Shown one piece after another: positions 1 to 60,726 of a DNA stretch of 64,000 bases; the first letter of the stretch is position 1; every line of letters starts with the position of its first letter. Location: IMG/VR virus record IMGVR_UViG_3300028045_002201, positions 1 to 64,000 of that record, one strand, 5' to 3'. The notes under the pieces were generated by a model, which saw only the letters and a list, made by a program, of their open reading frames with translations, was not told the DNA's origin and ran no database searches. The position numbers and the translations under genes were made by a program. Origin of the DNA: a virus.

Positions 1-105
1 GTCGTCAGCATCCATGTCTTCGTCGTCGGCATCCATGTCTTCGTCGTCAGCATCCATGTCTTCGTCGTCAGCATCCATGTCTTCGTCGTCAGCATCCATG
101 TCTTC
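1..105 (-). repeat. 21-nt tandem repeat coding for EDMDADD
   Basis: Five nearly perfect 21-nt units run to the window edge; a sixth, altered unit follows at about 106-126. Differences between units are single bases. The repeat is in frame with the acidic protein read on the minus strand, so copy-number change would alter protein length without a frameshift. Confidence 0.85.
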
Positions 106-522
106 GTCGTCATCCATGTCATCTTCAGTGCCCATGGGAGGACCAACCGCTTCGTTTTTATTTTGCATAAATGCATCAAAGCTTTCTGGCCATGTTTTTG
201 CCTCTTTGCCGCTGGCATCTGTGTCTGGACTGTAGATTAAGTTTTTGTCGCCATCGTCTCCAAGTCCTTTTTCTTTGCCACCATCTGCAACTTGCATCCC
301 AGGGTCTTTACCAGCAGCTTTGTATGGTGCAGGCTTAGAAGTTTTACTTCCAGCTACGTCTTCCATACCTTTTCCATCATCCTTTAACTTACGACCAGCC
401 TGAGACTTCTCTGGAGAAGCTGGGGTTGGACCGTCATAGTCAGCAACTTTTTTAGTGCTTGCCTTTTCTCTCGTCTTGCTTCTAGAGTCTATATACTCGT
501 TCCAAGTTTTCCAATTGTTCAT
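1..522 (-). CDS. Acidic repeat protein, 3' end outside window
   Basis: Partial gene, open to the window edge; 174 codons are visible. Start chosen at the ATG after an AGGAGAAAAG ribosome site. It opens MNNWKTWNEYIDSRS, an aromatic-x-x-aromatic head like the other tagged proteins of this window. A Lys/Gly/Asp-rich, probably disordered middle follows, then a tail made of a 7-residue acidic repeat (EDMDADD), encoded by 21-nt units at positions 1-105. No enzyme motif is visible. By composition and tag it could be an internal head or scaffold-type protein, but that is inference. Confidence 0.7.
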   Translation of the reverse strand, partial: MNNWKTWNEYIDSRSKTREKASTKKVADYDGPTPASPEKSQAGRKLKDDGKGMEDVAGSKTSKPAPYKAAGKDPGMQVADGGKEKGLGDDGDKNLIYSPDTDASGKEAKTWPESFDAFMQNKNEAVGPPMGTEDDMDDDEDMDADDEDMDADDEDMDADDEDMDADDEDMDADD

Positions 523-530
523 CTTTTCTC

Positions 531-713
531 CTAATGTGCATTTTCTGCTATTAGCATTATAATTAATAAAATGAGATAAAGCCCTAGGCCAGTGCCGAAA
601 AATACAATGCCTAAAACAAATCCTAGTCTAACTGTTGTAGGGTTGATGTTTAAGTCTCTTCCCAATCCTGAACAGACACCAAACAAAACCTTATTGCCAA
701 GATCTCTCTTCAT
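531..713 (-). CDS. PspC-like small membrane protein
   Basis: 60 residues from the ATG at 713, which follows AGGAGTATATT; the longer frame start at 785 has no ribosome site. The sequence has the PspC pattern: a short basic head (MKRDLGNKVLFGVCSGLGRD), an asparagine/proline turn, then a long hydrophobic helix (about residues 27-55). PspC proteins sit in the inner membrane and take part in the phage shock (envelope stress) response in bacteria. A phage copy could tune that response; this is inference. It lies just upstream of the acidic repeat gene, on the same strand. Confidence 0.75.
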   Translation of the reverse strand: MKRDLGNKVLFGVCSGLGRDLNINPTTVRLGFVLGIVFFGTGLGLYLILLIIMLIAENAH

Positions 714-769
714 AATATACTCCTGTTTTATATTTAGTGTATTATGTGCTTTTTTTTTAAAGCATAAAG

Positions 770-777: not shown

Positions 778-779
778 GT

Positions 780-1100
780 ATGCAATTCAGAAAATGGCTA
801 ATAAAAGAAATGGCTCACATATCAATTGATGAACCAATCGACATTGGAGATCAAAAAAATGTATCTATGATTGATATGCAGTTTGAACTATATCCCGACA
901 TGACCCAGACAACTCTAGCTCACTGGATAGTCAACGGATTTGCCGCCAAAGTCCCAAATAGCAATTATTATATAGTTTTTGACGGAAAAACAGGAAAAGC
1001 AAAGGTGTCCGATTCGACAGAGAACAAAATGCAAGTTCCTGGCGAATGGCACAAAATGGCTTATATGTCGAGCGATATGCCAGCTTGGAAATCTGCGTGA
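780..1100 (+). CDS. Hypothetical protein with N-terminal FRKWL tag
   Basis: 106 residues, MQFRKWLIKEMAHISID at the start. The head matches the aromatic-x-x-Trp-[LI] motif found on other proteins in the window. The body (residues 15-106) is mixed alpha/beta and rich in Tyr and Met; I do not recognise a domain. It is convergent with dnaE, whose stop codon lies 2 nt beyond its own. The TATA box directly before the ATG suggests late expression. Confidence 0.75.
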   Translation: MQFRKWLIKEMAHISIDEPIDIGDQKNVSMIDMQFELYPDMTQTTLAHWIVNGFAAKVPNSNYYIVFDGKTGKAKVSDSTENKMQVPGEWHKMAYMSSDMPAWKSA

Positions 1101-1101
1101 G

Positions 1102-2761
1102 TTATTGATCTGACCAAACACGATCAGTTCTTCCTAGAAAAGGCGCAGACTCAATTGCTTCGTCCATGGGAATGGGATCAATATTCGAAAAAGATGGTTC
1201 TCCCGAAAATCTAAACTTAATTTGTTTTCCGCCACGAGCAGGACTCAAAAATCTAGAAAACAATAGACCATGCTTGATTGGATCGACATCCGTTATCCCA
1301 AGACAGTAGCAACTAAGAGCACCAACTGCCGAGCCTCTTCCGGGACCGACTGCCGAAGAACCGCTGGAGCCATATGTCTCAAAGTACCATCTTCTGGCTT
1401 CATCGGTCATCATTTTTTGGATCAAAAAGTAAGAGGAAAAGCCTTTTTGGCAAATTAAAGAATATTCTTCTTCTATCCTATCCAAATATTCTTTATTCCT
1501 AGGAATTTTCCTCTTAACAACCCCTTCTATGATTGATTCCTTAAACTTAATGTCAGATTCGCTAAATGCAGGAAGTTTGATAGTTCTATCAAGCTTTACG
1601 CCTTTTGCTTTTTCGCAAAGGGCAACGGTATTTAACTTGGCCTGCTTAAGTATTTCGTAATCTATTACATCCTTGTAATCACTTTCCCACTTCGCATTTA
1701 TCTCTTCTTCTGACTTCATCCATAAGTTTGAATCTTGCAATTCGAACATATCAGCCATGTCATTCTGTGCCAACGCTTGTTCGATTTGCTTCATGGTTCT
1801 TCCTGTTTGAACCATAATCATCTTTCTCTGCATTTCGCTGTCTTCTTTGAGACAGTAGTGGCAATCATTTGTAACAATAATTGGTAAATTATATTTTTGG
1901 CTGGCTTTTATTATAAACTCATCATAAGGCTTTTGTTTCGAGAAGTCTAAAAGCATTATTTCTAGATAGAAGTTTTCTCCGAACATGGCCATATATTTTT
2001 CGACCATCTCCATAGCTGGACCTTCGCCACCCACATCAAAAGCTTGTCCAATTTCACTGTTATAACAGCAAGAAGTGAATATAATTCCTTCTTTATATTG
2101 CATGAGGACTTCGTGATTGACTCTGGGTTTCCTGTAGAAACCCCTCGTCCAACCCCAAGATGAAAGAGTAACCAGATTGCTGTAGCCTGTTTCATTATAG
2201 GCTATGGCAAGCAGATGATTCGATTTTCTTAACTTGGCTTGCTCTTCTTGCGTACCCAGACCTCTATTGAATTCCGTCATAGAAGGAATAGTGGTCGTGT
2301 CAGGCTGCAACTGATTTACATAAAGCTCACAAGCAAATATAGGCTCTAGGTTGTTTTCATCGCATGCTCTAATCTGGCGTGGGACAGAACCCATCGCACC
2401 ATGATCTGATATGCATAAAAACTTTTGATTTACCTGTTTAGAATATTTTCCATATTCTTCAACAGTGGCGTATCCATCTAAGCACAAACTCCACAGTTTC
2501 TTGTGGTGTAGACTATATCATCACCCCGAAGGGTGTCGGACGCTCTGGCCTGTAATTAAGAGGACTGAACCTCTCAGGTAGTCGTTGCACGTTCCAAAAG
2601 TGTACTTCTGGCTTCGCTCAGGATTGCCCTCGACTTTACGTTAGGGTTTCCCTGAATTCATCCGATTTGCATGCAAGATTTCTCTCACATGGCCCCAGTT
2701 AGTTAAGGCTGAAATCAGTATGTCTGTGTAGATGTTCAAAACCTACAATCAGGTCTTTCAT
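1102..2761 (-). CDS. dnaE: DNA polymerase III alpha N-terminal part, split by group I intron
   Basis: Joined exons 2761-2706 and 2482-1102 give about 478 residues. Exon 1 encodes MKDLIVGFEHLHRHTDFS; splicing restores the PHP signature HLHRHTDFSLLDGYA. The second exon holds the rest of the PHP domain and the first part of the family C palm, with GPGRGSAVGA and ITDVDPIKHGLLFSRFLSP near the end. It then stops before the catalytic PD(F/I)DxD aspartates. A bacterial DnaE has over 1,000 residues, so this product cannot polymerise alone. The remainder may be a separate gene outside the window, or the gene is decayed. It is downstream of a ClpP-like gene and an unknown gene on the same strand. Confidence 0.85.
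2483..2705 (-). other. ORF-less group I intron in dnaE
   Basis: 223 nt. The 5' exon ends in U (AGCCU) and the intron ends in G (UUUGUG), as group I introns require. P1 can form GCCU with GGGC, placing U-G at the splice site. Core elements are present in order: P-like AATTCAGGGAAACC, Q-like CAATCCTGAGC, R-like GTGCAACGACTA and S-like GATGATATAGTCT, with a CACCC-TTCG-GGGTG hairpin just before S. Removing it restores a continuous PHP domain. No homing endonuclease lies inside; the nearest is a free-standing HNH gene at 11365. Confidence 0.9.
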
Positions 2762-4300: not shown

Positions 4301-5893
4301 CTATAGCGATTCGTATTCTTCTCTGGTCATGACGGCCACATCGCCATCCTGTGTTCCTACGCACCAATAAACTATTTCTTCGTCATCGGAACCAGTAGTA
4401 GACAACACCACATCATTCCCCCAAATGAATCTTAAAGACTTTAAAGTGGGGATTAAATCCGGCTCATACAAGCCTCTGCCATCGGAGTTGTGCTCTAGCA
4501 ACATGACTCCCTTGCCTTGGTGGTTTGGATCTACTAGATATATCTCTGGCAAGCCTCCATTCAAATGTCTTTTGATCAACTTACTTTTGATTGACTTGTG
4601 GTCACGATTTTCAATCTTGTACTCGCCATTTGGATATCTTTTCCATTCAAAAAACTCATATTTATTACAAAAATCTTCTGTGAAAAACTCCATCAAAGCT
4701 GTTAGGTCATTATATTGCTTTCGAACATCAAATATTTTATCTCTGCCTAGACCTAGATTCTTATCCCAATTTTCTTTTTCTACTATATTGCTACATTCTT
4801 CGTACTCTTGGCCAAACTTGCCTTTATTCCACCTCTCTTCGATATCCAACAAAAGACAGAATCCTAGCTTATAAGGATTCATCGAATACTTGCCTCCGAG
4901 AACGCCCATCTTGTGAGCGGAGTATTCAACGATGCCGCAGTCTTCGCCTGTCTGCCCTAAGCCACAAAGTCCCATTTCACACATTACTGTATAATCTGTA
5001 AAGCTTGCCCATCCTTCGTTGAGCATTTTTGTAACTCTTTGAGGCGAAAAATATAAACTTTCCTCATACATCATGGAAAGAATGTCTGACTGCCAAGGTT
5101 TCAAAGGAGCACTATCTCTTAAAAATCCCATAATGTCTTTAGTTGGATTTTTAAATATTCCAATTTGCTGTGCGGCCTCATCTCGACTAATCTTTTCTTT
5201 TTGGCCATCAATCCATCTTTTAGGATTGATATAAGGCTCCATGTAATCACGGTCAGAATTTACACCTAACCTTTTAGGCTGCTTGTAGGTTCTCTCATCT
5301 TGTATGACACGATCTTTTACAACCTTTTCTTCCCAAGCCTTCGCTGAGTCTATCAAAGTTTCAATCGAGCAGCAGTGGTCGATAAATTCTGTAACTTTCT
5401 CCACGCCCCAACGCTGCATGTATTTTCGGATGCGGGTTCCATGATTAGCAAGTTGGTTCATCATATTTTGCGAGGTGGGCGCAAAATATATGTTGTTCTT
5501 AAAAAAGTCATTGTGGCCTAAAGCGTGAGCAATAACCGTAACATTATCCACCAGCGTATTTGAATCCAAACAGTAGATGTAACAAGGATTGGTATTAATA
5601 ACCATTTCATAAATTCGGTGCATCCCATGCTCGTAACCTTTTTGAAGGCTTTCGTATTCCATTCCCCATTTCCAGTGTGGGTAACGAACTGGAAATCCTC
5701 CGTAAGATGCAACTTCACTTATTTCATCGTAAGTCAGCATCTGAACAACGGTGGGATAAAAATCGCAGCCGAAGTCTTTAACTGCCTTGAATATGTCAGG
5801 CATAATCTTCTTAAGCTCACTAGGAAGCTGAACGCCTGGCACAGTGCTGTCACCGAGAAGCAGAGAAGAGCCTCTGAAAAATTTACTAGACAT
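4301..5893 (-). CDS. spoVR: SpoVR/YcgB family protein
   Basis: 530 residues, near full length for the family. Hallmarks are visible: YEMVINTNPCYIYCLDSNT, VIAHALGHNDFFKNN and the MMNQLANHGTRIRKYMQRWG stretch, followed by the long C-terminal cystatin-like part. In Bacillus SpoVR affects spore cortex formation. In enterobacteria its homologue YcgB is co-regulated with the PrkA kinase and YeaH under starvation; its biochemical activity is unknown. Here it follows yeaH by 5 nt and is third in a prkA-yeaH-spoVR order, as in bacteria. I see no frameshift or lost segment, which argues that it is functional. Confidence 0.93.
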   Translation of the reverse strand: MSSKFFRGSSLLLGDSTVPGVQLPSELKKIMPDIFKAVKDFGCDFYPTVVQMLTYDEISEVASYGGFPVRYPHWKWGMEYESLQKGYEHGMHRIYEMVINTNPCYIYCLDSNTLVDNVTVIAHALGHNDFFKNNIYFAPTSQNMMNQLANHGTRIRKYMQRWGVEKVTEFIDHCCSIETLIDSAKAWEEKVVKDRVIQDERTYKQPKRLGVNSDRDYMEPYINPKRWIDGQKEKISRDEAAQQIGIFKNPTKDIMGFLRDSAPLKPWQSDILSMMYEESLYFSPQRVTKMLNEGWASFTDYTVMCEMGLCGLGQTGEDCGIVEYSAHKMGVLGGKYSMNPYKLGFCLLLDIEERWNKGKFGQEYEECSNIVEKENWDKNLGLGRDKIFDVRKQYNDLTALMEFFTEDFCNKYEFFEWKRYPNGEYKIENRDHKSIKSKLIKRHLNGGLPEIYLVDPNHQGKGVMLLEHNSDGRGLYEPDLIPTLKSLRFIWGNDVVLSTTGSDDEEIVYWCVGTQDGDVAVMTREEYESL

Positions 5894-5898
5894 ATTTT

Positions 5899-7131
5899 TT
5901 ATCCTTGAATCTTCTTTTCTATTAAACCCGGTTTTCCTAATAAATCAATAATTGCTTCTCTGATTTTTACGTCTCTTTCTTCCTCTGAAATTTCAGAAGC
6001 AGGCCCCCAACTAGATACATTGTCTTCTGAGTCAGACATTATATCTGTGGTCACAACGTTAGAAGGAGGGCTTTCCGACATTAAAACATTCTCATCTACA
6101 TATTCTTTCAAGCTTCCCTTGTATCTCCAAGGCAAAATTTGAGCTATTCCTATAAAGTTGACAATATCTTCTGTGAATTGATCTTTTATTATTTTTGAAA
6201 AGACTTCGTTGTCATTGTCCCAGTTTTCCCCGTCAGTAAAATAAATTACGTACACATTCCACTTTTCAGGAGGAAACCTATTTTCCATCTGCTTTGAAAT
6301 TAATTTCAAAGCAGATGAACATGTTGTTCCACCACCATATCGGTATTTATAGAATCTTTTCTCATCAACTTCCGAAGCTTCTGTGTCGTGCCAAATATAA
6401 CATCTTTCGACACGTTTATAAAACTGCCTTATCCATAAATCTATCCACCAAGACATATCGCTAACAATATCACACTTTGTCTGGTCCATTGAAGCAGATC
6501 CATCACGAGCGAAAAATATAACAGCATTGCTCGATGGAACTTTTATTTCTTTATATCGCCTATACCTGCGATCACTGTTTATCGGCATGATCATTTTTAC
6601 AGGCTCCTTCATGCCGGGAATGGCATGGAGTTTTTCCAATTCTCCAGAAGCAGCCATTCTCTTCATGGCTTGCTGCATAGTTCTTCGATTGTGCCTTAAG
6701 GATTCTGGACCTTGTAATGAAATATCATTGTATTTAATTTTAATTTCATCATAAGTTTGATTTGGCTTTGGCTTTAAATCAGGAAGTTCTAATTCATCCT
6801 GAAGAAATTTTAAAACATCTTCCAAGTCTATGGATATAGTAACGCCATCAGATTGTCCTTGTCCTGCCTTGCCCTTGCCTTTTCCATCGCCTGGATCATC
6901 TCTCCCAACTACGTCTCCAGGTTTTCCACCGCCACGTCCGACTCCCTCGCCACTATTCCCATAAACAATATGTGGTATGTCTATTTTTGGGATTGTGATG
7001 TTTATCTTTTTCCCATCTCCACGAGTTCTAAATATAGATCCGTTTTTAATCCTCTTTTGAAGATCTTTTCTTATTCGGCCAGAATAAACATCTCTAAATC
7101 TTTTGTGGTCTTCTTCAATACGTCTTGGCAT
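5899..7131 (-). CDS. yeaH: YeaH/DUF444 family protein with vWA-like domain
   Basis: 410 residues from the ATG at 7131 (MPRRIEEDHKRFRDVYSGRI), preceded by AAAGGG; the longer frame start is ignored. A basic N-terminal segment is followed by a Gly/Asp-rich linker (about residues 60-95), then a von Willebrand A-like domain with a DxSxS metal site in ARDGSASMD (about 210). The DUF444 signatures YIWHDTEASEVDE and YRYGGGTTCSSAL follow. Family members are partners of PrkA kinase and SpoVR in stress adaptation. A terminator-like hairpin separates it from prkA, so it may have its own promoter or depend on read-through. Confidence 0.92.
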   Translation of the reverse strand: MPRRIEEDHKRFRDVYSGRIRKDLQKRIKNGSIFRTRGDGKKINITIPKIDIPHIVYGNSGEGVGRGGGKPGDVVGRDDPGDGKGKGKAGQGQSDGVTISIDLEDVLKFLQDELELPDLKPKPNQTYDEIKIKYNDISLQGPESLRHNRRTMQQAMKRMAASGELEKLHAIPGMKEPVKMIMPINSDRRYRRYKEIKVPSSNAVIFFARDGSASMDQTKCDIVSDMSWWIDLWIRQFYKRVERCYIWHDTEASEVDEKRFYKYRYGGGTTCSSALKLISKQMENRFPPEKWNVYVIYFTDGENWDNDNEVFSKIIKDQFTEDIVNFIGIAQILPWRYKGSLKEYVDENVLMSESPPSNVVTTDIMSDSEDNVSSWGPASEISEEERDVKIREAIIDLLGKPGLIEKKIQG

Positions 7132-7160
7132 TACTGAACCCTTTAGTAGTCTAAAATAAA

Positions 7161-7193
7161 GAGCCACCCCCACAAAGAAGTGAAGAGTGGCTC
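7161..7193 (-). terminator. Hairpin with T-rich tail between prkA and yeaH
   Basis: Stem GAGCCAC/GTGGCTC; read on the minus strand it is followed by TTTATTTT. It lies 14 nt after the prkA stop and 30 nt before the yeaH start. It would lower yeaH and spoVR expression relative to prkA. Confidence 0.7.
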
Positions 7194-7206
7194 ATCCTCT
7201 TTATAT

Positions 7207-9321
7207 CTAGGAGTCGTTAGCTACATCGCCTCTTGCAAATATAGAACCAACATAATCAAGAACATCCGTTGCGGATTTTTCGTTATATCCATGATGCTTA
7301 ATCAAGCGGGACTTAATTGCATCAATTTTTTCTTGAACGTCTGGATCAACTACAGAGGCACCAAGAGAATTTAAAGCAGAAAGCTTTATGTGATCTCTAG
7401 TGTCTTCGAATAGTTTGGTTTGCAAAGCCTTTTGCAACTGTGGGTTACTATCCCACTTAAAGGTTTTGCTTTCATGGGCAAGATTTCCAATGAAAGCTGC
7501 CAAACTTCTGCGGAAGTCGTCAGAGCCAACTTCTGGAACATCAATTTTTTCTTCAATCGATCTCATCAACTGCTCATCTGGCAACTGTTCCTGTCCTGTG
7601 TACGGATTGGTCACTTTTGCCTTTTTAATGTATGCCATCACGTTATCGACATAATTAGTACAAAGTCTAATAATGGCATTCTCATCACCAACAAGTGCTT
7701 TTTGAACTTCTGTTTTCAAAATCTCATCTAGCTCTTTCATAGCAAAATCAACACAAGTGTTAAACCTACTTGCGTCCTCTTGATTAGAGATCAAAGAAGA
7801 TCCGTCAAGTCCTTCACGAATTTCATTCAGCACCATGAATGGATTGATGTAATCATGGTGAGAACTCAAACAGTTAGAAATCTTGTCCTGAACATATCGA
7901 GCAGAGACTCCGCCAGACATCCCTTCATTTGGATATTTATCTCGCATTTCTTTTACTGAATCTTCAGTCCAGCCAGGCATTGATTTTCCATCATAAAGCT
8001 TTGACTTCTCTACCAAAGAAATTTTGCCATCTTTATCATCTTGCAATCTTGTCAAAACCGCCCAAAGAGCGGCAATCTCTAAAGTATGAGGAGCAACATG
8101 CTGAGGAACTTTACTTTTGCCGTAATCGTTCTGATAAACTTTAAGTTCATCAGAAAGACTTAAAAGATATGGAACATCGATCTTCACAGTTCTATCACGC
8201 AAGGCTTCCATGCTTTGATTGTTCTTGAGTTTTTCATACTCAGGATTATTTGTATGCCCAATTAAGACTTCATCGACCCCAATCTGAGCGAACTTTTTCG
8301 GCTTTATGCTTCGCTCTTGAGACGCTCCCAAAAGATCGTACAAAAACTCTTGAGCAAGCTTCAGCATCTCAATAAATTCAACAACACCACGATTCCCCAC
8401 ACAAAACTCACCATCAAAGTTGAAAGCTCTAGGATCACTATCAGATCCAAAGTGAGGAAGCTTCGCATAATTGATGTCACCAGTTAGCTCAGTAGCATCT
8501 TGATTCTTTTCGTCTTTAGGTTGAAAAGTTGCAATCCCGCATCTGTCTGCTTCAGAATAAACTTTTCTCACAACAACAATGTGCTCGTCAACAACCTTTC
8601 TCCAATCACCCTTGTGTATTTTCAAAAGTTCATCCATAAACTTTTTACATCTCGGATTAAGCTCCCCGTCGCAACGGAGTTCGTATGTTTGCTCTCCTTG
8701 AGGGTGATTCCCAAACTCTGCCTTTACTTCATTCAAATCTTTGAGAAGTTCTGCTCGTACTTTCATGGGCACTAACTTAATGGGATCGTCATGCATCGGA
8801 CAATCATCAGAATCATTTGTATAAATTCCATCGGACCCTGTTGGAAGGTTTTTCCAACGGTATGTATACCAAGCACCTTGGTCTGTTTGAGAGTATTCTT
8901 CCATGCCTCTTTTGATAAGTCGGCAAATTGTAGACTTAGACGAACCTACTGGCCCGTGGAGAAGAAGAATTCTTTTTTCGGTTCCGTACCAACCGGCAGC
9001 ACCCCGAATAAATTTAACCAATTCATGTAGAGTATTGTCCAAACCATAAATTGGAATTTCATCATTATCAAAGAAGTTATAATGGATATAGGTTTTTCGA
9101 TACTTTTTAAACTCAGAAGTTCCAGCATTCATGATCATATCATAAACTCGCTGGTAAGCTGATCGGACTAAGCCTGGACTTTTATAACAACTATCAATGT
9201 ACTCAGAAAAAGTCATTTCCTGATTAAGTGTTTGAAATTTACCAGTATCAAAAAATCCAGCAAGCTTGTCTAGCTTAGAAGTGCCTTCATGCTCTTCCTT
9301 GTTGAAATTTTCATTTTCCAT
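7207..9321 (-). CDS. prkA: PrkA family serine protein kinase
   Basis: 704 residues, slightly longer than typical PrkA (about 640). The AAA-like N-terminal domain carries the P-loop GPVGSSKST at about residues 123-131. The family pattern continues with CPMHDDPIKLVP, GNRGVVEFIEMLK and IKPKKFAQIGVDEVLIGHTN, and the C-terminal PrkA domain has GGVSARYVQDKISN. PrkA (YeaG in E. coli) is a stress and starvation kinase; some work assigns it a Lon-like protease activity. The start is an ATG with AGGAAC 6 nt upstream. It heads the minus-strand run prkA-yeaH-spoVR. The phage role is unknown; a change of host stress state during infection is the obvious hypothesis. Confidence 0.95.
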   Translation of the reverse strand: MENENFNKEEHEGTSKLDKLAGFFDTGKFQTLNQEMTFSEYIDSCYKSPGLVRSAYQRVYDMIMNAGTSEFKKYRKTYIHYNFFDNDEIPIYGLDNTLHELVKFIRGAAGWYGTEKRILLLHGPVGSSKSTICRLIKRGMEEYSQTDQGAWYTYRWKNLPTGSDGIYTNDSDDCPMHDDPIKLVPMKVRAELLKDLNEVKAEFGNHPQGEQTYELRCDGELNPRCKKFMDELLKIHKGDWRKVVDEHIVVVRKVYSEADRCGIATFQPKDEKNQDATELTGDINYAKLPHFGSDSDPRAFNFDGEFCVGNRGVVEFIEMLKLAQEFLYDLLGASQERSIKPKKFAQIGVDEVLIGHTNNPEYEKLKNNQSMEALRDRTVKIDVPYLLSLSDELKVYQNDYGKSKVPQHVAPHTLEIAALWAVLTRLQDDKDGKISLVEKSKLYDGKSMPGWTEDSVKEMRDKYPNEGMSGGVSARYVQDKISNCLSSHHDYINPFMVLNEIREGLDGSSLISNQEDASRFNTCVDFAMKELDEILKTEVQKALVGDENAIIRLCTNYVDNVMAYIKKAKVTNPYTGQEQLPDEQLMRSIEEKIDVPEVGSDDFRRSLAAFIGNLAHESKTFKWDSNPQLQKALQTKLFEDTRDHIKLSALNSLGASVVDPDVQEKIDAIKSRLIKHHGYNEKSATDVLDYVGSIFARGDVANDS

Positions 9322-10754: not shown

Positions 10755-10958
10755 TTATTCCTTTGATTCATCTTCTATCAATTCTCCAGATTCAGCATCA
10801 ACGATAGCAAAATCAGAAACATCCATTTTCAATGTTTCTACATACTCTGCACATGCAGCGAGCATTTCTTTCGCTTCTTCAACATCAGAAGTAAACCACA
10901 ATCCAACTTGAGGATGCTTTAAGGTTCTGCCTGTCTTTTTATTCAATAAAGTATACAT
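10755..10958 (-). CDS. Hypothetical small protein
   Basis: 67 residues from the ATG at 10958 (MYTLLNKKTGRTLKHPQVG), overlapping the upstream stop as TGATG. It has a short beta-rich front and an acidic end (SGELIEDESKE). Translation is probably coupled to the tagged gene just upstream. No known domain. Confidence 0.65.
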   Translation of the reverse strand: MYTLLNKKTGRTLKHPQVGLWFTSDVEEAKEMLAACAEYVETLKMDVSDFAIVDAESGELIEDESKE

Positions 10959-11350
10959 CAACCTATATTAGTATCAGGCGATGGAACTTGAACCGTTGAG
11001 TTAGCATTATTTTGAGCTTGTCCAAATTGTTGAGGCTGACCTATGCCGCCGCCACGAACCGAACCAGATTTTGGCGTCGAGGGTGGGGACATATTAGAAG
11101 CAGGGGGAACAGGATTCGGCTGAGTGCCGGGACTCATGTTTGAAGCTGGTCTTTTGTTGTTTGTTTGCAATTTGTCAGACACATTAAATGCCGATCTGGG
11201 CTTTTTAGAACTATTTAAATTATCTTGAGGATTGATGCCTGCCATTTGTGGATTAGCAGGTGCTACAGGGCTTTCTCCTGCCCTTCCTGCTGCGTTCATT
11301 CCTGTGGCACTTGCTCCCGTGCCTTGCTCAAGCCATTTTCTGAATTCCAT
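10958..11350 (-). CDS. Disordered protein with N-terminal FRKWLE tag
   Basis: 130 residues: MEFRKWLEQGTG, then a low-complexity region rich in Asn, Pro, Ser, Gly and Gln with repeats of the type PASNMSP. After the tag nothing looks folded. This fits a small internal head protein or a structural linker rather than an enzyme. The ATG follows an AT-rich CATAATAGT, with no ribosome site. Confidence 0.75.
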   Translation of the reverse strand: MEFRKWLEQGTGASATGMNAAGRAGESPVAPANPQMAGINPQDNLNSSKKPRSAFNVSDKLQTNNKRPASNMSPGTQPNPVPPASNMSPPSTPKSGSVRGGGIGQPQQFGQAQNNANSTVQVPSPDTNIG

Positions 11351-11643: not shown

Positions 11644-11904
11644 TTACTTCTTTGCGTTATTGTCAGGCAAAAATTTTGCTGCATCGGCTGGCTTTAGCTG
11701 GCCGCTATCGATTGCTTTTATAACATTATTTTTTACAGCATCTTTTACGGCTTTAGAATCTCCACCACTTTTGATTGTTTTTGTGGTGTCTGCTTTAATT
11801 TGCTGGCTCAACTGAGAATTCTCTGCGTCCTTTTCCGCATTGCCCTGTTGTCCCACTTCCATCTCTTTAAGAGATACCCATTTTTCAAAAGAATAATTAT
11901 TCAT
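11644..11904 (-). CDS. Small protein with N-terminal FEKWV tag
   Basis: 86 residues: MNNYSFEKWVSLKEMEVGQQ, then a polar Lys/Asp/Ala-rich helix-forming region (KAVKDAVKNNVIKAIDSG). It is convergent with the HNH gene, the two ending one base apart. The ATG is preceded by GATAAATTACT and no ribosome site. It belongs to the tagged group described in the findings. Confidence 0.72.
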   Translation of the reverse strand: MNNYSFEKWVSLKEMEVGQQGNAEKDAENSQLSQQIKADTTKTIKSGGDSKAVKDAVKNNVIKAIDSGQLKPADAAKFLPDNNAKK

Positions 11905-23722: not shown

Positions 23723-24121
23723 TTACATGGGTGACTGAGAATCCAAGCCTTGCAGAAGTGCGGTGTTCAACTGATCAACAGGAATCGTATAAACTTTGTT
23801 ATCTGGATCTTCATAAGCACTGACTCTGATTTGCTTTCCATCATCGTCTTTTTTAAACTTTTTCTTTGTTGTATCACTTGTATCGTTCATCATCTGGATT
23901 TTAGCATGGGTTATATTTCCATCAGAATCACGATCATACCCTAAAATTTTATATCCAGATAGGTTATATGAATTTCCACCTATAGAAAACTGAGAAATAG
24001 TCTGCGGACTGTCTGCAACTAGTTCAGGGGGTATTCCTAGCTCGTCTTCAATTTGGTTTAAATAATCTATTTTTTGTTTTTGATATTCCAAAAAATCTCT
24101 AAATGATAAATTGTTGTTCAT
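23723..24121 (-). CDS. Hypothetical protein with FRDFLE tag
   Basis: 132 residues: MNNNLSFRDFLEYQKQK, an acidic helix, then a beta-rich region (residues 45-110: FSIGGNSYNLSGYKILGYD). The head fits the aromatic-x-x-aromatic-[LI]-E tag with Phe in place of Trp. TATATAAGGC directly precedes the ATG. Divergent from the next gene. Confidence 0.72.
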   Translation of the reverse strand: MNNNLSFRDFLEYQKQKIDYLNQIEDELGIPPELVADSPQTISQFSIGGNSYNLSGYKILGYDRDSDGNITHAKIQMMNDTSDTTKKKFKKDDDGKQIRVSAYEDPDNKVYTIPVDQLNTALLQGLDSQSPM

Positions 24122-24131: not shown

Positions 24132-24166
24132 CTCTATGAGTAGATCTTTTTTTGAGAAACATTAAT

Positions 24167-24520
24167 ATGAATAAATCTCCTGCATTTTCTGAATTTAGAA
24201 ATCTAATGGACACATGGGACAAACAAGTCCTCCATGAGAACACAATAGACAATTTTATAGATAAAAACGGCCTTTTATTATTTTTCACAAAAGGAAAAAA
24301 TTGCTTTGGAGCACCAGAGCAAAGCAGGTTAATTTTTGCAAAATTAAAATCCGATGATGAAGATTGCGAAGAAGACGGCTGGAGAGATGAAGCATCCTTC
24401 GCCGCATTAAATTTACAAGATGCACTAAACGGTGAAGAAAAACAGCATATTTTTTCTAATAGAGACTTGAATTCTATAAAGATAATAGACAAACGTGCTC
24501 TTTACGAGAAGTTAAAATGA
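24167..24520 (+). CDS. Hypothetical protein with FSEF head
   Basis: 117 residues from the ATG at 24167 (MNKSPAFSEFRNLMDTW). The head AFSEFRNLMD is a weaker version of the tag. The rest is acidic in the middle (KSDDEDCEEDGW) with a globular-looking end. Its stop overlaps the next gene as ATGA, so it is coupled to the TnsA-like nuclease. Confidence 0.68.
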   Translation: MNKSPAFSEFRNLMDTWDKQVLHENTIDNFIDKNGLLLFFTKGKNCFGAPEQSRLIFAKLKSDDEDCEEDGWRDEASFAALNLQDALNGEEKQHIFSNRDLNSIKIIDKRALYEKLK

Positions 24521-26441: not shown

Positions 26442-26720
26442 ATGGCAAAAAAAGTAGAAAAAACATGCAAGAACTGCCAATTATACAACCAAAAGAGCGG
26501 AGAATGTAGTGTAATAGTCCTTCATGAAGGAGAAAAAATAAACATTCCTGTTGATCCAGAGGATGCATGTTTTTTTGAAAATGAATTCATAGAAAAATAT
26601 AAACCTATTCAGGACGTAAAACAAGTTAAGCTTTGGGTAGAAGATCCAAAAACTGGCGAAAAGACTACGGATGGAGTCGTAAAAATAGAATACCCAACTG
26701 ATTTTTTTGGTGAAGAATAA
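26442..26720 (+). CDS. Small four-cysteine protein
   Basis: 92 residues. C-x-x-C (CKNC), then Cys in SGECSV and DACFF, gives a possible metal site at residues 9-43; the remainder is acidic. Similar short Cys proteins occur in T4-like phages without known function. Directly followed, 1 nt after the stop, by the Cys-rich gene, so both may be co-expressed. Confidence 0.7.
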   Translation: MAKKVEKTCKNCQLYNQKSGECSVIVLHEGEKINIPVDPEDACFFENEFIEKYKPIQDVKQVKLWVEDPKTGEKTTDGVVKIEYPTDFFGEE

Positions 26721-26721
26721 T

Positions 26722-27843
26722 ATGGCGACATTGGAAAACTGCTGCGGAGGAGGAGGAGGAGGAGGGGTAGACTCAAACTGCTGCGGTCCTTTTAGCCTCG
26801 GAACGCCTGGCAGTGGTTGGTCCTCTTGTTGCGACAACGTTTGTCCGCCACCCGTTTGCTGCTGTGGGAGCGTTACGTTCAATTATCAATGCGGTGGAGG
26901 CGGAACTGGTGCGTCAGACTGCTACCCTGTAAACCCATGCGACCTCTGTCCTCCACCTTGTGAAGGTAGCCCGCCATCTTGTACTCCGCCATCATATGAC
27001 CCGCCCGATTGCATTCCATCTTGCTGCCCGCCGTCGTATGACCCACCGTCGTATGATCCACCGTCATATGATCCACCGTCATATGAAGATCCACCAATCA
27101 CGTCCAGCGTAGCGTTGAGATTTCGGTCCATTCTGCCAGAGGGTCATCCTGATTACTCGAATAATAGGTCAAATCTATCCTATGCCTTGGAAGATTTTCC
27201 AGGAATAGAAGATTTTACGAATAGTTATATTGGCATGGAAAACAACCCCAACTATACCAAATTCGCTCGTGAATCTGGTTCGCATTTGCCAAGCCGTGAA
27301 TATATTTCCAGCGAGGATTCTTTTGAGTCTCTTGGAGCCATTCAGTCTCTTGAAGTCACTCCCAGTCCATCTGTTATTGACCCGTCCTGTTGTTGCGACC
27401 CATGTACTTGTGCAACGACTAGTGTCACCGTGACTTTCTCAGGTTGCTGCCTGTATATTGATGGGTGCAGCATCACCACTGTTGGATCTGGAGACCTAAC
27501 ATGGAACTCAGCATTCACTGCTGGCAGTTGCAGTGGGACAGTTTCTGTAAACGGGGACTCATCAGGAAGTTTATCTGTCGCAGACGGCGAGTCAGTCAGC
27601 GTATCAATCAGTGGCGTCTCAGGTGATTGCTGCAATTGTGAATTAGTATCTCAAACAGGTTGTGGAATCGCATTTGACAATAGCAACCTCTACTCTCTTG
27701 TAAACGGGAAGTTAGCGTTAAACAAAAAAGAGTACATGAAGCAAAGAAACGCCCTAATCAAACACAGAGCGGAAACGAAACTCAGAAAATTATCCAAAGA
27801 AAGAAAGAATTCTTTGCTAAACAAAATCAGAAGAAGAAATTAA
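26722..27843 (+). CDS. Very cysteine-rich protein with PPSYD repeats and basic tail
   Basis: 373 residues from MATLENCCGGGG. I count 32 cysteines, many as CC or CCC pairs. Residues about 1-130 are Cys/Gly/Pro rich and contain five PPSY units; 130-215 is polar; 215-320 is a Cys/Ser/Thr/Gly beta-rich domain (FSGCCLYIDGCSITTVGSG); the end is strongly basic (KLRKLSKERKNSLLNKIRRRN). No signal peptide. I do not recognise the family. The composition suits a disulfide- or metal-linked virion or adhesive protein. The basic end resembles the C-terminus of the protein at 52295. Confidence 0.8.
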   Translation: MATLENCCGGGGGGGVDSNCCGPFSLGTPGSGWSSCCDNVCPPPVCCCGSVTFNYQCGGGGTGASDCYPVNPCDLCPPPCEGSPPSCTPPSYDPPDCIPSCCPPSYDPPSYDPPSYDPPSYEDPPITSSVALRFRSILPEGHPDYSNNRSNLSYALEDFPGIEDFTNSYIGMENNPNYTKFARESGSHLPSREYISSEDSFESLGAIQSLEVTPSPSVIDPSCCCDPCTCATTSVTVTFSGCCLYIDGCSITTVGSGDLTWNSAFTAGSCSGTVSVNGDSSGSLSVADGESVSVSISGVSGDCCNCELVSQTGCGIAFDNSNLYSLVNGKLALNKKEYMKQRNALIKHRAETKLRKLSKERKNSLLNKIRRRN

Positions 27844-45009: not shown

Positions 45010-45237
45010 TCAAACAGTCTTGCTTAACCACTCTTTAAAGCTAAAGTTTTTTATAAGCAAGGAATCTATTTGTCTATTTGGATTAACAATTATTTTGTTA
45101 ATTTCTTTCTTTCCTTTTTCAGATGTTATTGCTTTCCATGCTTTTTTTCTTGTCGGATAGCTCATATCTTTAAAAGATGATCTTAAATTTTTTACAATAT
45201 CTTCTATTGCATCTCTTTTATTTGATTTTTTACTCAA
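45010..45237 (-). CDS. Small protein with C-terminal FKEWL motif
   Basis: 75 residues, TTG start, 1 nt after the stop of the upstream gene. It is basic and helical (KNLRSSFKDMSYPTRKKAWK) and ends NFSFKEWLSKTV. The tag motif is at the C-terminus, unlike the other members, which suggests the motif acts as a peptide wherever it is exposed. Confidence 0.62.
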   Translation of the reverse strand: MSKKSNKRDAIEDIVKNLRSSFKDMSYPTRKKAWKAITSEKGKKEINKIIVNPNRQIDSLLIKNFSFKEWLSKTV

Positions 45238-45238: not shown

Positions 45239-46018
45239 TTAGTACCATTTCAGAGTATTAGTGATTGTTTCTATTATTTCAGAATTTTCCTGTGTAGGAA
45301 AGAAATTCAAATCAGTATCAGAAGGACTCATGGCCCACTCATGTTGTCCCATTCCAGACTCTATGTTGTAGTTCAATATTCGAATCATCCCTTTTTCTTT
45401 TTCGAATATTATAGAAGTTTGATTTTCCTCGACTCTTTGATGATCTGGTGCTTGGTTGCCATGTCCTTTAACTCCCAGTCTGATGATATAATTAGAATTA
45501 CTTATTTTCTTAATGCCCTCATAGATGAAGATATTCTTTGCGTTTCTTCTTATAGAATCAGCCATTTGTACAACTAGGCTTTCGAGTTTATTATATTCTC
45601 TCTTTGGAGAATCTATATCCTCTTTATTTATCACTTGCACTTCGTCTAAAACTTCATTGGCGACTATATCTTCATATCCCCCATATCCGCCTCTGTTTAT
45701 TTGAAAAATTCTTTTTGTATACCAAGTTGGGTTCCCAGTTAAATCGCTTCCTAGTCTGTCGATCATGAGATTCAGACCAGTACCACACCAGCACTTTATA
45801 GAACCGGAATTATCTCCCCATTGTACCTCATTCATGAAATTGCTACGCCCTTCATTGGTTCCAATTTTTTTAGATGCGAGTATAGAAAACAGCTTTTCTA
45901 AATCAAAAGATTTTATAGGCATATCGTTTTGATGTGACTTCTCAGCATCTTTGTTGTTTTGATCAAATCCAAAAATATCTTTAAATTCTAACCATGTTTT
46001 AAAGCCTTTAACTGTCAT
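45239..46018 (-). CDS. Hypothetical protein with FKTWLE tag
   Basis: 259 residues: MTVKGFKTWLEFKDIFGFD, then a mostly folded domain (residues 40-259) with Trp/Gly-rich loops (EVQWGDNSGSIKCWCGTG) and strands at the end. AAGGAATAAA precedes the ATG. It could be a packaged or structural protein; domain unknown. Co-translated with 45010. Confidence 0.7.
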   Translation of the reverse strand: MTVKGFKTWLEFKDIFGFDQNNKDAEKSHQNDMPIKSFDLEKLFSILASKKIGTNEGRSNFMNEVQWGDNSGSIKCWCGTGLNLMIDRLGSDLTGNPTWYTKRIFQINRGGYGGYEDIVANEVLDEVQVINKEDIDSPKREYNKLESLVVQMADSIRRNAKNIFIYEGIKKISNSNYIIRLGVKGHGNQAPDHQRVEENQTSIIFEKEKGMIRILNYNIESGMGQHEWAMSPSDTDLNFFPTQENSEIIETITNTLKWY

Positions 46019-54547: not shown

Positions 54548-54802
54548 ATGGAATTTAGATATTGGATAGAATCTGAAGCGAAAGCACTGGCGTCTAGAGA
54601 CATGGTGCTTAATTTTCTTCAAGATAAATTAAACATTAATGATCCCGAAGCAATCCTAAATATGTCTACAGATCAGATAGACTCAGGCGTTATTGCAGAT
54701 CTTTCCCAAAGAGGAATTATATCTTCTGATGATGAGCTTCAATCTATAATCAAGAACGGAATTAAGATATCTGAATTAATAAACATTCTTTCAAAGCAAT
54801 GA
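54548..54802 (+). CDS. Small protein with FRYWIE tag
   Basis: 84 residues: MEFRYWIESEAKALASRD, then a helical acidic region (DKLNINDPEAILNMSTDQID). Head identical in pattern to the 10958 and 780 genes. No enzyme motif. Confidence 0.75.
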   Translation: MEFRYWIESEAKALASRDMVLNFLQDKLNINDPEAILNMSTDQIDSGVIADLSQRGIISSDDELQSIIKNGIKISELINILSKQ

Positions 54803-56257: not shown

Positions 56258-56262
56258 AAAAC

Positions 56263-57261: not shown

Positions 57262-57275
57262 GTTATCATTTCAAA

Positions 57276-58730
57276 ATGAAGAAAGCTGTAATAAAGGTTC
57301 AAAACTGCTATTCTTGGTTAAACACCAATTGTGATGATACCCGAATAAATCTTTGGAAAGCCCTTAGACATAGAGAAAAAGGGTATTTTCACAGTCGTCT
57401 TTATAAACAAAGGCTGTGGGATGGATATACAGAGTTTTTCAAAAAAGAAAGTGGAAGATTTTTATCTGGCCTACTGCCAGAGGTTACTGCTGCTTTAGAT
57501 CATTGGAAAATACCTCATACCATTATCGATGAGAGAGGTGAGCCTGAATTTTTGTATGACGAAATTGGCTCGGACTTCTTGGATCAATGGATTCATCACC
57601 TTCCTCAGAAAGATCAAGATCGATGGCAAGGAATGCGTGACTATCAAATTGATCTCACCAATCAAGTCATCAAACACAAGAGAGGTGTTGTTTTTGCCCC
57701 AACCTCAGCAGGTAAAACTGCAATCATGGTTGCAATTTTAAAAACAATTCCTGAAAACGTGCCAACTCTTATTCTTGCAAATAAGAAAAGCCTTTGTGAT
57801 CAAAACTATGATGCCTTGACAAGCTGGGGATTTGAAAATGTCGGACGACTTTATGACAAGTACAAAGATCCAAACATCTTCACATGTGCGACTGTACAAT
57901 CTTTGCATAAAATAGAAAAGTTAATTCCTAAAGTTAAAGTCATGGTAGTGGATGAAATTCATGACATGATGAGTAAGACGCCAAAGAAGTTTTACACAAA
58001 AATGAAAAACTGCTCGGTTAGAGTAGCCGTCAGTGCTACGCCTTTTAAATTTGGCGGAAAAGATAAAACACAAAAGTTCTCTGTAAAAGGCCACTTTGGA
58101 CCTGTGCTTAAAACAAAGTCAGCAGATAACGACAAGGGAATCCTTACAACAAAGACTCTTCAAGATAGAGGAATCTTATCTTCTTGTAACTGTACGTTCT
58201 ATCCAGTGAAAGAACCTCAGATTCCGTATGATATTTATCTTGATGCAGTAACCAATGGTATAGCTGAGAGTTGGCATTTTCACGACATTGTGAGCCGATT
58301 GGCTAGATCTTTGAAGGGCAGAACCCTTATCTTGGTCGAAAGACTTGCACACGGAGAAGCCTTGCAAAGTCTGATTCCTGATGCTTTATGGGTTCGTGGA
58401 GAAGATAACCTAGATGCAAGAAAAGATGTCATCGACCAGCTACAGTACTCTAAAGGCAATAAAATAGCAATCGCCACCCAAGGTATTTTCAATGCTGGGA
58501 TCAACGTGTTTGTCCACAATCTTATCAATGCGGCTGGAGGACAAGCAGATCACCAGATTATACAGCGATTTGGGCGAGGATTGAGACTTGCATCTGATAA
58601 AGACGGACTTGAATACTATGATTTTGTTTTCGATATAAATGAATATTTGCTAGATCATTCAAAGAAAAGAATTAAAATTATAAAGAATGAAGGACATAAA
58701 GTAGATATTCGTGAAGAATTAGACTTTTAA
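57276..58730 (+). CDS. uvsW: UvsW-like DNA helicase
   Basis: 484 residues. Walker A is FAPTSAGKTAIMVAI, DEIH is in VMVVDEIHDMM, VAVSATPFK is motif III, and IIQRFGRGLRLA is motif VI. The N-terminal 110 residues (LWKALRHREKGYFHSRLYKQ) match the T4 UvsW-like front domain. UvsW remodels R-loops and branched DNA, which fits a T4-like replication switch. Close in position to the RecA block. Confidence 0.88.
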   Translation: MKKAVIKVQNCYSWLNTNCDDTRINLWKALRHREKGYFHSRLYKQRLWDGYTEFFKKESGRFLSGLLPEVTAALDHWKIPHTIIDERGEPEFLYDEIGSDFLDQWIHHLPQKDQDRWQGMRDYQIDLTNQVIKHKRGVVFAPTSAGKTAIMVAILKTIPENVPTLILANKKSLCDQNYDALTSWGFENVGRLYDKYKDPNIFTCATVQSLHKIEKLIPKVKVMVVDEIHDMMSKTPKKFYTKMKNCSVRVAVSATPFKFGGKDKTQKFSVKGHFGPVLKTKSADNDKGILTTKTLQDRGILSSCNCTFYPVKEPQIPYDIYLDAVTNGIAESWHFHDIVSRLARSLKGRTLILVERLAHGEALQSLIPDALWVRGEDNLDARKDVIDQLQYSKGNKIAIATQGIFNAGINVFVHNLINAAGGQADHQIIQRFGRGLRLASDKDGLEYYDFVFDINEYLLDHSKKRIKIIKNEGHKVDIREELDF

Positions 58731-58746
58731 ACATAAATAATTTATT

Positions 58747-60726
58747 ATGTTTAGAAATTGGATAGAAAATAAAGAACAGTTAAATAAATCGGTCAACAAG
58801 TCAATTGACGAAATTGTTTATGGCGATATGGATGAAAAGACAGATGCTCTGTCTAAAAAAGAGCATCCTCTCTTTAAAGGAAGATTTAAGGTAGACCCAC
58901 CACCTTCCAACACCTCGAAAGAAACTATCGAGGAACTTAAAGAGCTAGAAAAGATGAGTCATTTTAAGTCCAAAGATATCATGAAAGATATGAAGGATTT
59001 TGATGTGGCTCAAGTCAAGCCATTTGAAGATTATCTTAAACAAAATTCTCTAGATTTCGATTTCAAAATGCTTAACAAAATACTTAAGCAAGGCGAAATA
59101 CTTGGACTAAAGCTTAAAAAGAAGTTCAACAGACCAAGACCGCATCAGATCGCACCCAAGATGGGTCTAAACATAATGTATCATGATTTGAAAACAGACG
59201 ATACGCCAGCTTATCCTTCAAATCACTCTTTGATTTCTTCTTTAATTGCTCTATATCTTTCTTCGCTATATCCGAAACATGAAAAAGGATTCATGGACAT
59301 TGCAGACAGGATCGGAATTAGCCGATTATATGGAGGGACTCATTATCGAAGCGATCATGATTCTGCAAGGAAACTAGCTAAGGACATCATGAAGTCTTGG
59401 AAACCTGCTGTTAAGCCTGCAAAATATTCGTTCACTGAGTGGATGCTGAAGCTCGAAGACCAAGGTATCCACGCATTCATGCGAGTGGCAAGTGAAAAAT
59501 ATAAAGACGACAGAAGTAAAGACATTCTTGTTATTTATGGAAATACGACGCCAATTAAAGACAAACTAAAAGAAATAACAAAATTTACTTGGAACCAAGG
59601 TGGCTATTGGAGCACGGGCAGGTGGAGTCTGAATAATGATGTGATTCAAAAACTCATAGAGCTAACTGGAATAACTGATTTGAAAGAAATCATAGATGCT
59701 GGACCGCAATTTAACGCTGATTCGACTGAGGCAGAAGAAGAGAAAGATGCACCCAAGAGTCAAGTTGATGCGATTCTTGGTAACATGGAACAGGAAATTG
59801 AAAACGCTAAAGGCAAAGCGGGCGGTAAAGCAAAACAAATTCTCACCATGATTGAAAACTATCTTGAAAAATTGGCCAACTTGGTTGATGAAGAAATCAA
59901 ATCAGGATTCGTTAAAGACTTTATGCGGTTTGCTGCTAAATTCCACAACTACTCTTTCAATAATCAAATGTTGATTTACGCACAAAAGAAAGATGCAACT
60001 TACGTAAACTCTGAAAGTCGTTGGCTTAAACTCGGAAGAGCAGTTACCAATAAGGATCAAGGAATTATAATTCTTGCGCCTATGACAGGAAAGAAAAAAG
60101 AAAAAGATGCAGATTTAGAGGGGCAAAAGGAAGAAAGAAAATTTGTATTCTTCAGACCCGTTAAAGTTTATGATATTTCTTCAACACAAGTCATATCAGG
60201 ACAAGAAGACAAGGCAAAAGTGTTTGAGCCAAATGATTGGCGACAAGATACTGATGAAAACACTGAAGAACTTACCCTGCTCATCAATGCAGGAATAGAA
60301 ATAGCCAAGCAAAAAGATATATCTATCGACTATGAGGAACTAGCTCAAGGTACGGGCGGCTACTCTGCGGGTGGAAAGATTGTAATCAACAACACCTATG
60401 GTGGAATCAACAAGTTTAGCACTCTCGTACATGAACTCGCCCATGAAATACTCCATCAAGTAATGAAGCCAGAAGAAAGAGCAAAAGAAAACAAAAGAGA
60501 TTTTGAATATGATGCTGAATCTGTGGCCTATATCGTTCTTCAATACTTTGGATTTGAAACCAAAGACTCTCCAAGATATATCGCTCTATGGAAAGGCGAC
60601 AGCAAAGCAGTTAAAGGAAGAAGAGAAAATATCAGCAAAGCATCAAAGGAAATCATTCAAGGCATAAAAAAGAATGTCGAGGATATGGTAATTCAAGATG
60701 ATCTCCCTGAAGAAGATGCTGCCTAA
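58747..60726 (+). CDS. Tagged PAP2 phosphatase + ArdC-like + metallopeptidase fusion
   Basis: 659 residues. Tag MFRNWIENKE, then a PAP2-type phosphatase: KKKFNRPRP (126-132), PSNHS (157-161) and SRLYGGTHYRSDHD (192-205). A second tag-like segment, YSFTEWMLKLED (227-238), divides it from a region of unknown fold (250-320) and a coiled linker. An ArdC-like domain follows (NYSFNNQMLIYAQ at 401-413, then an RWLKLGRAVTNKDQGIIIL stretch). Last is a zinc metallopeptidase site, HELAH (562-566), with a likely third ligand at Glu591. ArdC proteins protect incoming DNA from restriction. The tag suggests packaging and injection. Confidence 0.85.
   Translation: MFRNWIENKEQLNKSVNKSIDEIVYGDMDEKTDALSKKEHPLFKGRFKVDPPPSNTSKETIEELKELEKMSHFKSKDIMKDMKDFDVAQVKPFEDYLKQNSLDFDFKMLNKILKQGEILGLKLKKKFNRPRPHQIAPKMGLNIMYHDLKTDDTPAYPSNHSLISSLIALYLSSLYPKHEKGFMDIADRIGISRLYGGTHYRSDHDSARKLAKDIMKSWKPAVKPAKYSFTEWMLKLEDQGIHAFMRVASEKYKDDRSKDILVIYGNTTPIKDKLKEITKFTWNQGGYWSTGRWSLNNDVIQKLIELTGITDLKEIIDAGPQFNADSTEAEEEKDAPKSQVDAILGNMEQEIENAKGKAGGKAKQILTMIENYLEKLANLVDEEIKSGFVKDFMRFAAKFHNYSFNNQMLIYAQKKDATYVNSESRWLKLGRAVTNKDQGIIILAPMTGKKKEKDADLEGQKEERKFVFFRPVKVYDISSTQVISGQEDKAKVFEPNDWRQDTDENTEELTLLINAGIEIAKQKDISIDYEELAQGTGGYSAGGKIVINNTYGGINKFSTLVHELAHEILHQVMKPEERAKENKRDFEYDAESVAYIVLQYFGFETKDSPRYIALWKGDSKAVKGRRENISKASKEIIQGIKKNVEDMVIQDDLPEEDAA

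Follow-up and report, generated by a model that had tools for sequence, protein, structure and literature searches.

A short aromatic tag on otherwise unrelated proteins of a T4-related huge phage, a probable capsid-loading address

A short peptide tag, formed by an aromatic pair three residues apart and a following aliphatic residue, stands at the start of many otherwise unrelated proteins of a T4-related huge phage, to which belongs the stretch of DNA analyzed here (the window: bases 1-64000 of the 70,788-base IMG/VR virus record IMGVR_UViG_3300028045_002201). The tag occurs in clear excess over chance, it is concentrated in the clade of this phage, it can be separated from the bodies that bear it, its carriers have a distinctive composition, and the phage has head genes of the T4 type. 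By analogy with the capsid-targeting sequence (CTS) of T4, it would in all likelihood act as a capsid-loading address, borne by some 30-40 injected proteins. A broader proposal, to which we give even chances, is that of a general cargo loading in which one portable peptide, at either end of the protein and not necessarily cleaved, would load about 30 to 40 effectors per head.

The UvsX-like protein of the window has an identical copy in two longer records, G001 (245,522 bases) and G002 (83,101 bases), and the window's own record, G002, G003, G004 and G005 match G001 at 99.9-100% over their length. At the end of G001, 37.6 kb are shared with G003 (62.7 kb), which extends 25 kb beyond it, and G006 (44.6 kb), from a sample shared with G001, overlaps G003 over 4,305 bases at 100%. 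Together G001, G003 and G006 amount to about 311 kb, and a larger genome probably lies behind them. Once overlaps were removed, these three records provided the 408 proteins of what we call the main phage; proteins were called with a simple hexamer-based caller, and tag counts depend on it.

Under a strict rule, which asks for F-x-x-[WFY]-[LIVM] starting at residues 2-16 and takes as null 1000 shufflings of residues 2-21, 29 of the 408 proteins of the main phage bear the motif, against a shuffle mean of 6.1 (standard deviation 2.3, maximum 14 in 1000). The excess is present in the window (8/78 proteins against a mean of 0.86, maximum 4 in 1000) and outside it (21/330 against 5.2). Twenty tags from outside the window were used to train a profile of seven columns; in 79 window proteins it gave six sites of at least 12 bits against 0.46 expected, five of them starting no later than residue 15. 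Moreover, motif starts cluster at residues 1-5, with 19 cases in the main phage, 35 in the uncultured phage record LR756511 and 13 in the contig G012, while later five-residue bins hold 0-13 each. The motif is therefore commoner than expected, by shuffles as well as by the profile, and the initial annotation, which had pointed to it in the window and had said that a frequency no higher than expected would speak against it, had before it a portion of what is a pattern of the whole genome. Chance probably accounts for several of the 29 strict matches and, in the window, for that of a 35-residue open reading frame at 2736. Two other matches were rejected as tags: that of the HldE-like protein at 18350, among the eight in the window, whose LR756511 partner lacks the motif, and that of the primase-like protein G006:33494 (so named by our own reading) and its relatives, where the match is part of the aligned body.

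The distribution of the tag was followed by means of capsid-protein alignments. The relatives numbered at least 595, of which the best 80 were kept; among these, 18 contigs stand at 74-83% identity, after which there is a gap down to about 30%. Tags were counted in seven of these 18 close contigs (G007 being represented by the first 40,000 of its 41,544 bases), and excesses are found in G012 (16/190 proteins against 2.9), G009 (10/70 against 1.5) and G010 (11/42 against 1.1). The nearest named record by capsid, at 77%, is LR756511, an unannotated uncultured phage of 595,163 bases; it holds 57 strict tags in 1027 proteins against 16.3 (standard deviation 3.7, maximum 29 in 300 shuffles), and several of these proteins start with MKTFxxW. 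In the 50 kb counted of LR756508 there is 1/66 against 0.6. There is no excess at the 62 loci counted around capsid genes that are more distant (5/651 against 6.0), nor in Mosig (2/174 against 2.8) or NCTB (1/291 against 3.4); the more distant G014, counted whole, and G015, in the first 60,000 of its 66,022 bases, gave 5/174 against 2.5 and 0/56 against 0.9. Since the excess is present in G012, G009, G010 and LR756511 but not in the 62 distant loci, the large expansion of the tag is a feature of the clade of the main phage, with a milder signal in P-SSM2. In the latter (AY939844) four proteins, at 100269, 158143, 164043 and 172902, start with MK[TS][FY]xxF, one of them annotated as a cytitidyltransferase, and it may be that cyanophages carry tagged cargo too, in smaller number.

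The tag corresponds closely to what is described for T4. The first ten residues of IPIII are enough for packaging there, targeting being due mainly to residues 4 and 7 of the ten, and processing to residues 8 and 10 (PMC9026906); Alt is also reported to carry a CTS (PMC5694885). In the T4 record, ipII and ipIII have Y4, F7, I8 and E10, and ipI has F4, F7 and T8, so that the aromatic pair and the aliphatic residue of the tag correspond to T4 positions 4, 7 and 8. The likeness to the T4 sequence, already noticed in the initial annotation, thus holds at the two targeting residues and at residue 8. Furthermore, among proteins starting with MK[TS] and an aromatic residue in the main phage, LR756511, G012, G009, G010 and G008, a second aromatic lies exactly three residues on in 24 of 25, where about 2.5 would be expected; in T4 the same is true of four of six, namely ipI, ipII, ipIII and gp61.1. 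This gp61.1 (NC_000866 18966-19130, locus L211), a Cys-free hypothetical protein of 54 residues which starts with MKTFKEFIKEDM, may be an unrecognised capsid-targeted protein. Both in T4 and here the sequence is N-terminal on otherwise unrelated proteins with low-cysteine bodies, in phages with gp20/gp21/gp23-type head genes, and ipII and ipIII share the aliphatic residue after the pair (Thr in ipI); in T4 the address tolerates foreign bodies. The differences are that there are about 30 carriers here as against the three internal proteins and Alt of T4, that Trp is the commonest second aromatic and Glu usually comes right after the aliphatic residue, that the T4 cut consensus is not enriched, and that there are one C-terminal copy and enzyme cargo. 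As regards the bodies, a BLASTP comparison of 28 tagged proteins with 237 called T4 proteins (E 0.01) gave no match to ipI-III, the sole match being that of a NUDIX protein to the T4 gene at 67035.

Head genes of the T4 type are encoded by the same phage. G006 carries a T4-type head module with a gp20-type portal (PF07230, E 6.9e-73), a gp21-family protease (PF03420, E 2.4e-30), a gene (G006:11190-12113) that occupies the gp22 position and has relatives in both LR756511 and G012, a gp23-like capsid protein (E 2e-35 to T4) and, by our own reading, a terminase-like gene. PF03420 is above cut-off in G006 as well as in all 11 of the other records searched for it; it gave no match in G003, G004 and G005, and neither it nor PF07068 (gp23) matched in G001 and G002, the head genes sitting on another record. 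PF07068 matched nowhere, controls included. LR756511 combines in one record the tags and relatives of the protease, scaffold-like, portal and terminase-like proteins of the main phage. The clade to which the main phage belongs is one of T4-related huge phages that have homologues of gp20, gp21 and gp23, and together with the residue match to T4 the gp21-family protease, gp23-like capsid protein and gp20-type portal support the packaging tag proposed in the initial annotation. Two genes contain intein domains, namely that of the portal (G006:15036-17573) and one for a B12-dependent ribonucleotide reductase (G001:187092-190556).

Comparison of orthologues points to a tag that is separable from its carrier. 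Reciprocal-best matching between the main phage, the seven clade contigs and LR756511 gave 685 pairs, of which 644 are without the strict tag, 27 are tagged in one partner and 14 in both, and some of the untagged partners may be start-site errors. Six LR756511 partners fail the strict rule yet keep the aromatic pair (MKSFASWF, MRTWHEFV, MDGFKEFF, MLSFREWC, MEGFRQFF and MDFREFYK). In G001:218005 and G012:90165 an alignment at 57% begins only after residues 31 and 15, respectively, and the tag starts both. The NUDIX protein is tagged in the main phage and untagged in its G012 and LR756511 orthologues, and G006:2096 and its LR756511 partner are tagged while the G012 partner is not; the upstream frame of both untagged G012 genes holds no tagged start. 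The tag can also change ends. A 75-residue protein of the window with a TTG start (45010..45237, minus strand) bears it at the C-terminus as FSFKEWLSKTV, with FKEWL at residues 67-71, and is related (36% over 56 residues, pairwise E 7e-13) to G010:16356, which, unlike it, bears MKSYKEYILSES at the N-terminus; both are called from TTG, and the N-terminal copy depends on that start. This homologue with the tag at the opposite end speaks for the C-terminal copy that had been proposed at 45010. From these sequences the tag appears to be a portable module that is gained, lost and moved between protein ends. C-terminal copies were not retained as a general feature, their excess being only weak (12/408 against 5.8 +/- 2.4 in the main phage, 17/1027 against 11.8 +/- 3.3 in LR756511 and 7/190 against 2.2 +/- 1.5 in G012).

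The bodies that follow the tag differ from the other proteins of the phage. For this comparison the 29 strict matches were taken without G001:50125 and G001:131508 and with G006:2622 (FRNWL at residue 28) added, and composition was measured beyond residue 25 in proteins of at least 50 residues, i.e., 28 tagged and 367 others, with weaker candidates (113003, 158168, 223561 and others) left in the untagged set. Cysteine makes up 0.38% of the tagged bodies and 1.89% of the others (p 3e-8), and the tagged bodies are more basic, with a median net charge of +2.2 against -2.3 per 100 residues (p 0.006); both differences hold among proteins of up to 260 residues (25 against 242; p 4e-6 and 0.01). The same is found in the clade contigs (40 against 375; pooled cysteine 0.42% against 1.51%, charge p 8e-5) and in LR756511 (38 against 869; cysteine p 1.6e-5, charge p 4.5e-4). 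In the main phage, 19 structural and head-assembly proteins, some of them named by our own reading, have a mean of 0.69% cysteine, above which a tube protein (3.05%) and the protease (2.07%) stand out, and 15 enzymes a mean of 1.85%; in T4, ipII, ipIII and gp61.1 have no cysteine in a proteome at 1.00%. Low cysteine and positive charge would be expected of proteins packed with DNA in an extracellular particle.

With regard to the nature of the carriers, nine of 40 tagged proteins scanned reach a curated Pfam cut-off. Several domains are combined in a 659-residue multidomain protein of the window (58747..60726, plus strand; N-terminal tag MFRNWIEN), in which PAP2 (118-203; PF01569, E 2.6e-9) is followed by an ArdC-N antirestriction domain (364-475; PF08401, E 1.3e-8) and a metallo-protease-like region (511-595; PHROG, E 1.4e-5). 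The main phage also has a DUF6036 nucleotidyltransferase, the NUDIX protein and a weak M78 peptidase among its tagged proteins; in relatives there are a poly(A)-polymerase with HD, a GNAT acetyltransferase, an FMN reductase and, as a weak match, an ADP-ribosyltransferase of polyvalent proteins. An esterase (YMQWI) and a UvrD-type helicase (FKDWF), both of G012, carry forms of the tag outside the strict rule. For a 995-residue tagged protein, a search of viral contigs confirmed no relative. Judging by their sequences, the recognised cargo domains would fit injected effectors.

During head assembly, the short and probably helical tag would bind a gp22-type scaffold core through its aromatic pair, and the carrier, once bound, would be enclosed in the prohead. 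It would then stay inside the head with the DNA and enter the next host by injection; there, domains of the ArdC/metallopeptidase, NUDIX, nucleotidyltransferase or acetyltransferase kind could act at once against host defence or redirect host metabolism. A portable tag would in this manner let one virion carry tens of different cargo proteins.

Several points weigh against reading the tag as a capsid-loading address of this clade. The head-gene record G006 joins G001 only through a third record, G003, and the 4.3-kb overlap, and the gp22-position gene, which is labelled by its position, had no BLAST match in T4, P-SSM2, Mosig or NCTB. Among the clade contigs, G008 (3/50 against 0.8) only equals the shuffle maximum of 3, G007 (4/49 against 1.6) and G013 (2/32 against 0.5) lie inside the shuffle range, and G011 has no strict tag in 48 proteins (0.5 expected); outside the clade, P-SSM2 has 11/293 against 4.2 (maximum 10), which makes the clade boundary not sharp. 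T4 itself has no excess under the strict rule (2/237 against 4.0). Neither the motif nor the aromatic pair recovers T4 Alt, whose length in this comparison is the one that we assume. Some orthologues lack the tag, and tagged proteins are not less conserved, a reciprocal-best partner existing for 12/26 of them and for 181/408 of all; the idea that they would be more accessory than the rest was not borne out. The cysteine deficit is smaller in LR756511 (mean 1.08% against 1.93%), and to speak of effectors for tagged proteins below the Pfam cut-off is a guess. Lastly, the cleavage after the tag that had been foreseen finds no support in the T4 consensus: [LI]xE within 20 residues after the tag is found in 9 of 28 tagged proteins, no more often than in shuffles (mean 10.0), and in 18 of 27 tags the aliphatic residue is immediately followed by E. 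The tag is set apart from a plain T4 CTS because this processing feature was tested and not found. The capsid protein of the main phage, for its part, keeps an RLxNE stretch at the place that we take to align with the T4 cut site, as do those of 14 of 16 clade contigs. Either the protease of the clade cuts differently or the tag stays on.

Other explanations have to be weighed against the capsid-loading address. The tag could be a docking peptide that takes proteins, during infection, to some phage structure other than the head, such as the machinery of replication or of transcription, a platform at the membrane or the tail, or a compartment inside the cell. The tagged genes are indeed scattered over the genome, several bodies are enzymes able to act during infection, and the binding of the tag to the head core is a prediction. 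However, the aromatic pair coincides with the targeting residues of the T4 CTS and recovers ipI-III, the tagged bodies are Cys-poor and basic, unlike the 15 replication and metabolic enzymes, and the strict rule finds no match in the first 22 residues of 16 proteins of replication, metabolism and the tail (inspected by eye and named by us), so that we consider such docking quite unlikely.

That the tagged proteins serve head assembly as structural or scaffold-like core proteins, to be then largely degraded or retained instead of injected as effectors, is, in turn, very unlikely. NUDIX, ArdC/PAP2, nucleotidyltransferase, acetyltransferase and FMN reductase carriers are nothing that a scaffold needs, although several tagged proteins are short, lysine-rich and of low complexity (e.g., G001:213897, G006:30437 and G003:12054), some of their genes lie near the head module, and their orthologues are, as given above, about as frequent as those of other proteins. 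As to the motif being a product of chance, or a compositional feature of short N-terminal helices, a five-residue motif is loose and about 6 of 408 proteins would be expected to match it. Nevertheless, the count in the main phage lies ten standard deviations above the shuffles, the profile recovers the tags independently, the strong excess recurs in LR756511, G012, G009 and G010 and not in the 62 distant loci, and diverged orthologues keep the aromatic pair; this explanation is already refuted, and its probability is close to nil.

The capsid-loading address would have precedents in other phages. The closest, for one address on unrelated anti-defence bodies, is that of T4 Ip1-3, which are reported to share only their N-terminal leader and to inhibit different GmrSD enzymes (PMC12373910). 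In P1, an N-terminal signal of DarB, of more than 9 but fewer than 30 residues, packages the antirestriction protein and a foreign reporter; an N-terminal packaging peptide on an antirestriction protein would be common to both, but the P1 authors saw no consensus among Dar N-termini (PMC9024508), whereas here one consensus is common to many proteins. In SPN3US, many head proteins are ejected and N-terminal propeptides have been given an inferred CTS-like role, several of them being longer than 100 residues while the tag has about 8; in the same source no gp22 counterpart is confirmed for giant phages (PMC5694885), unlike here, where a gene stands in the gp22 position. Polyvalent proteins are multidomain, are thought to be delivered with the invading DNA and commonly pair ArdC-N with a metallopeptidase; excerpts of that work describe no common short address peptide (PMC5512222). 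Such a combination of conflict domains (ArdC-N with metallopeptidase) is present here in the 58747 protein only, and most tagged proteins show no or one recognised domain. A search of the open-licence PMC literature (preprints excluded) brought up the work on T4, P1 and SPN3US and, among the papers listed, none that describes such a tag across a genome, and excerpts of a huge-phage study (PMC7162821) do not mention it.

What huge phages load besides DNA is largely unknown, and the tag makes the question tractable: if it marks carried proteins, a testable list of genes, anti-defence candidates included, could be drawn from sequence alone, and the injected arsenal of an uncultured phage would be readable straight from its genome. 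The few internal proteins of T4 would then appear as a modest instance of loading that can reach a far larger scale, and new short tags would be on offer for packaging proteins in phage heads.

In the window, the shared tag is real at the level of single proteins, since seven of the nine N-terminal places named in the initial annotation match F-x-x-[WF]-[LIV] directly. Those with small carriers are 780..1100 (plus strand; 106 residues, MQFRKWLIKE, no Pfam family), 10958..11350 (minus; 130 residues of low complexity, MEFRKWLEQ), 11644..11904 (minus; 86 residues, MNNYSFEKWVSLKE, motif stretch NYSFEKWVS), 23723..24121 (minus; 132 residues, MNNNLSFRDFLEY, motif stretch LSFRDFLEY, no Pfam family) and 54548..54802 (plus; 84 residues, MEFRYWIES, no Pfam family). 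A single-sequence structure model of the last is mostly helical, with a mean predicted local distance difference test score (pLDDT) of 75.9 and residues 1-6 below 50. The 259-residue protein at 45239..46018 (minus) starts with MTVKGFKTWLEF (motif stretch GFKTWLEF), and its partner LR511:397976 in LR756511 with MKSFASWFNEY, the alignment running from residue 1 of the partner. No family was found for it, the best PDB sequence match (E 0.69) gave no relative of note, and its single-sequence model, at a mean pLDDT of 41.8, was unusable.

The remaining places are less regular. The protein at 1..522 (minus; 225 residues), which is cut by the window edge and is whole as G001:113003-113680, starts with MNNWKTWNEYI, a degenerate copy that keeps aromatics at residues 4 and 7 and does not match the strict motif; its reciprocal-best partner LR511:341701 starts with a full tag, MDLKSFSEFLRK. 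The acidic repeats of this protein (DEDMDADD) are in tandem at window positions 1-240. At 24152..24520 (plus; 117 residues from the ATG at 24167), the weak motif PAFSEFRNL lacks the aliphatic position, as does the equally degenerate PAFSSFRGLL of its relative LR511:364463, and the protein was not counted as tagged. The second copy that had been claimed for the 58747 protein is indeed there, as FTEWM at residue 229 (59431..59445, plus), between PAP2 and ArdC-N, and in a protein of 659 residues such a match could be chance; so could an additional FEDYL at residue 93, found with a looser motif.

Elsewhere in these records, the alpha subunit of DNA polymerase III is encoded by two genes about 4.5 kb apart (window 1102-2487 and G001:107030-109762), with the DNA_pol3_alpha domain divided between them at profile position 98/100. 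The window also encodes, at 4301-9321, a SpoVR / DUF444 / PrkA gene trio, which is usually cellular, and, at 26707-27843, a DPPSY-repeat protein rich in Cys, Gly and Pro.

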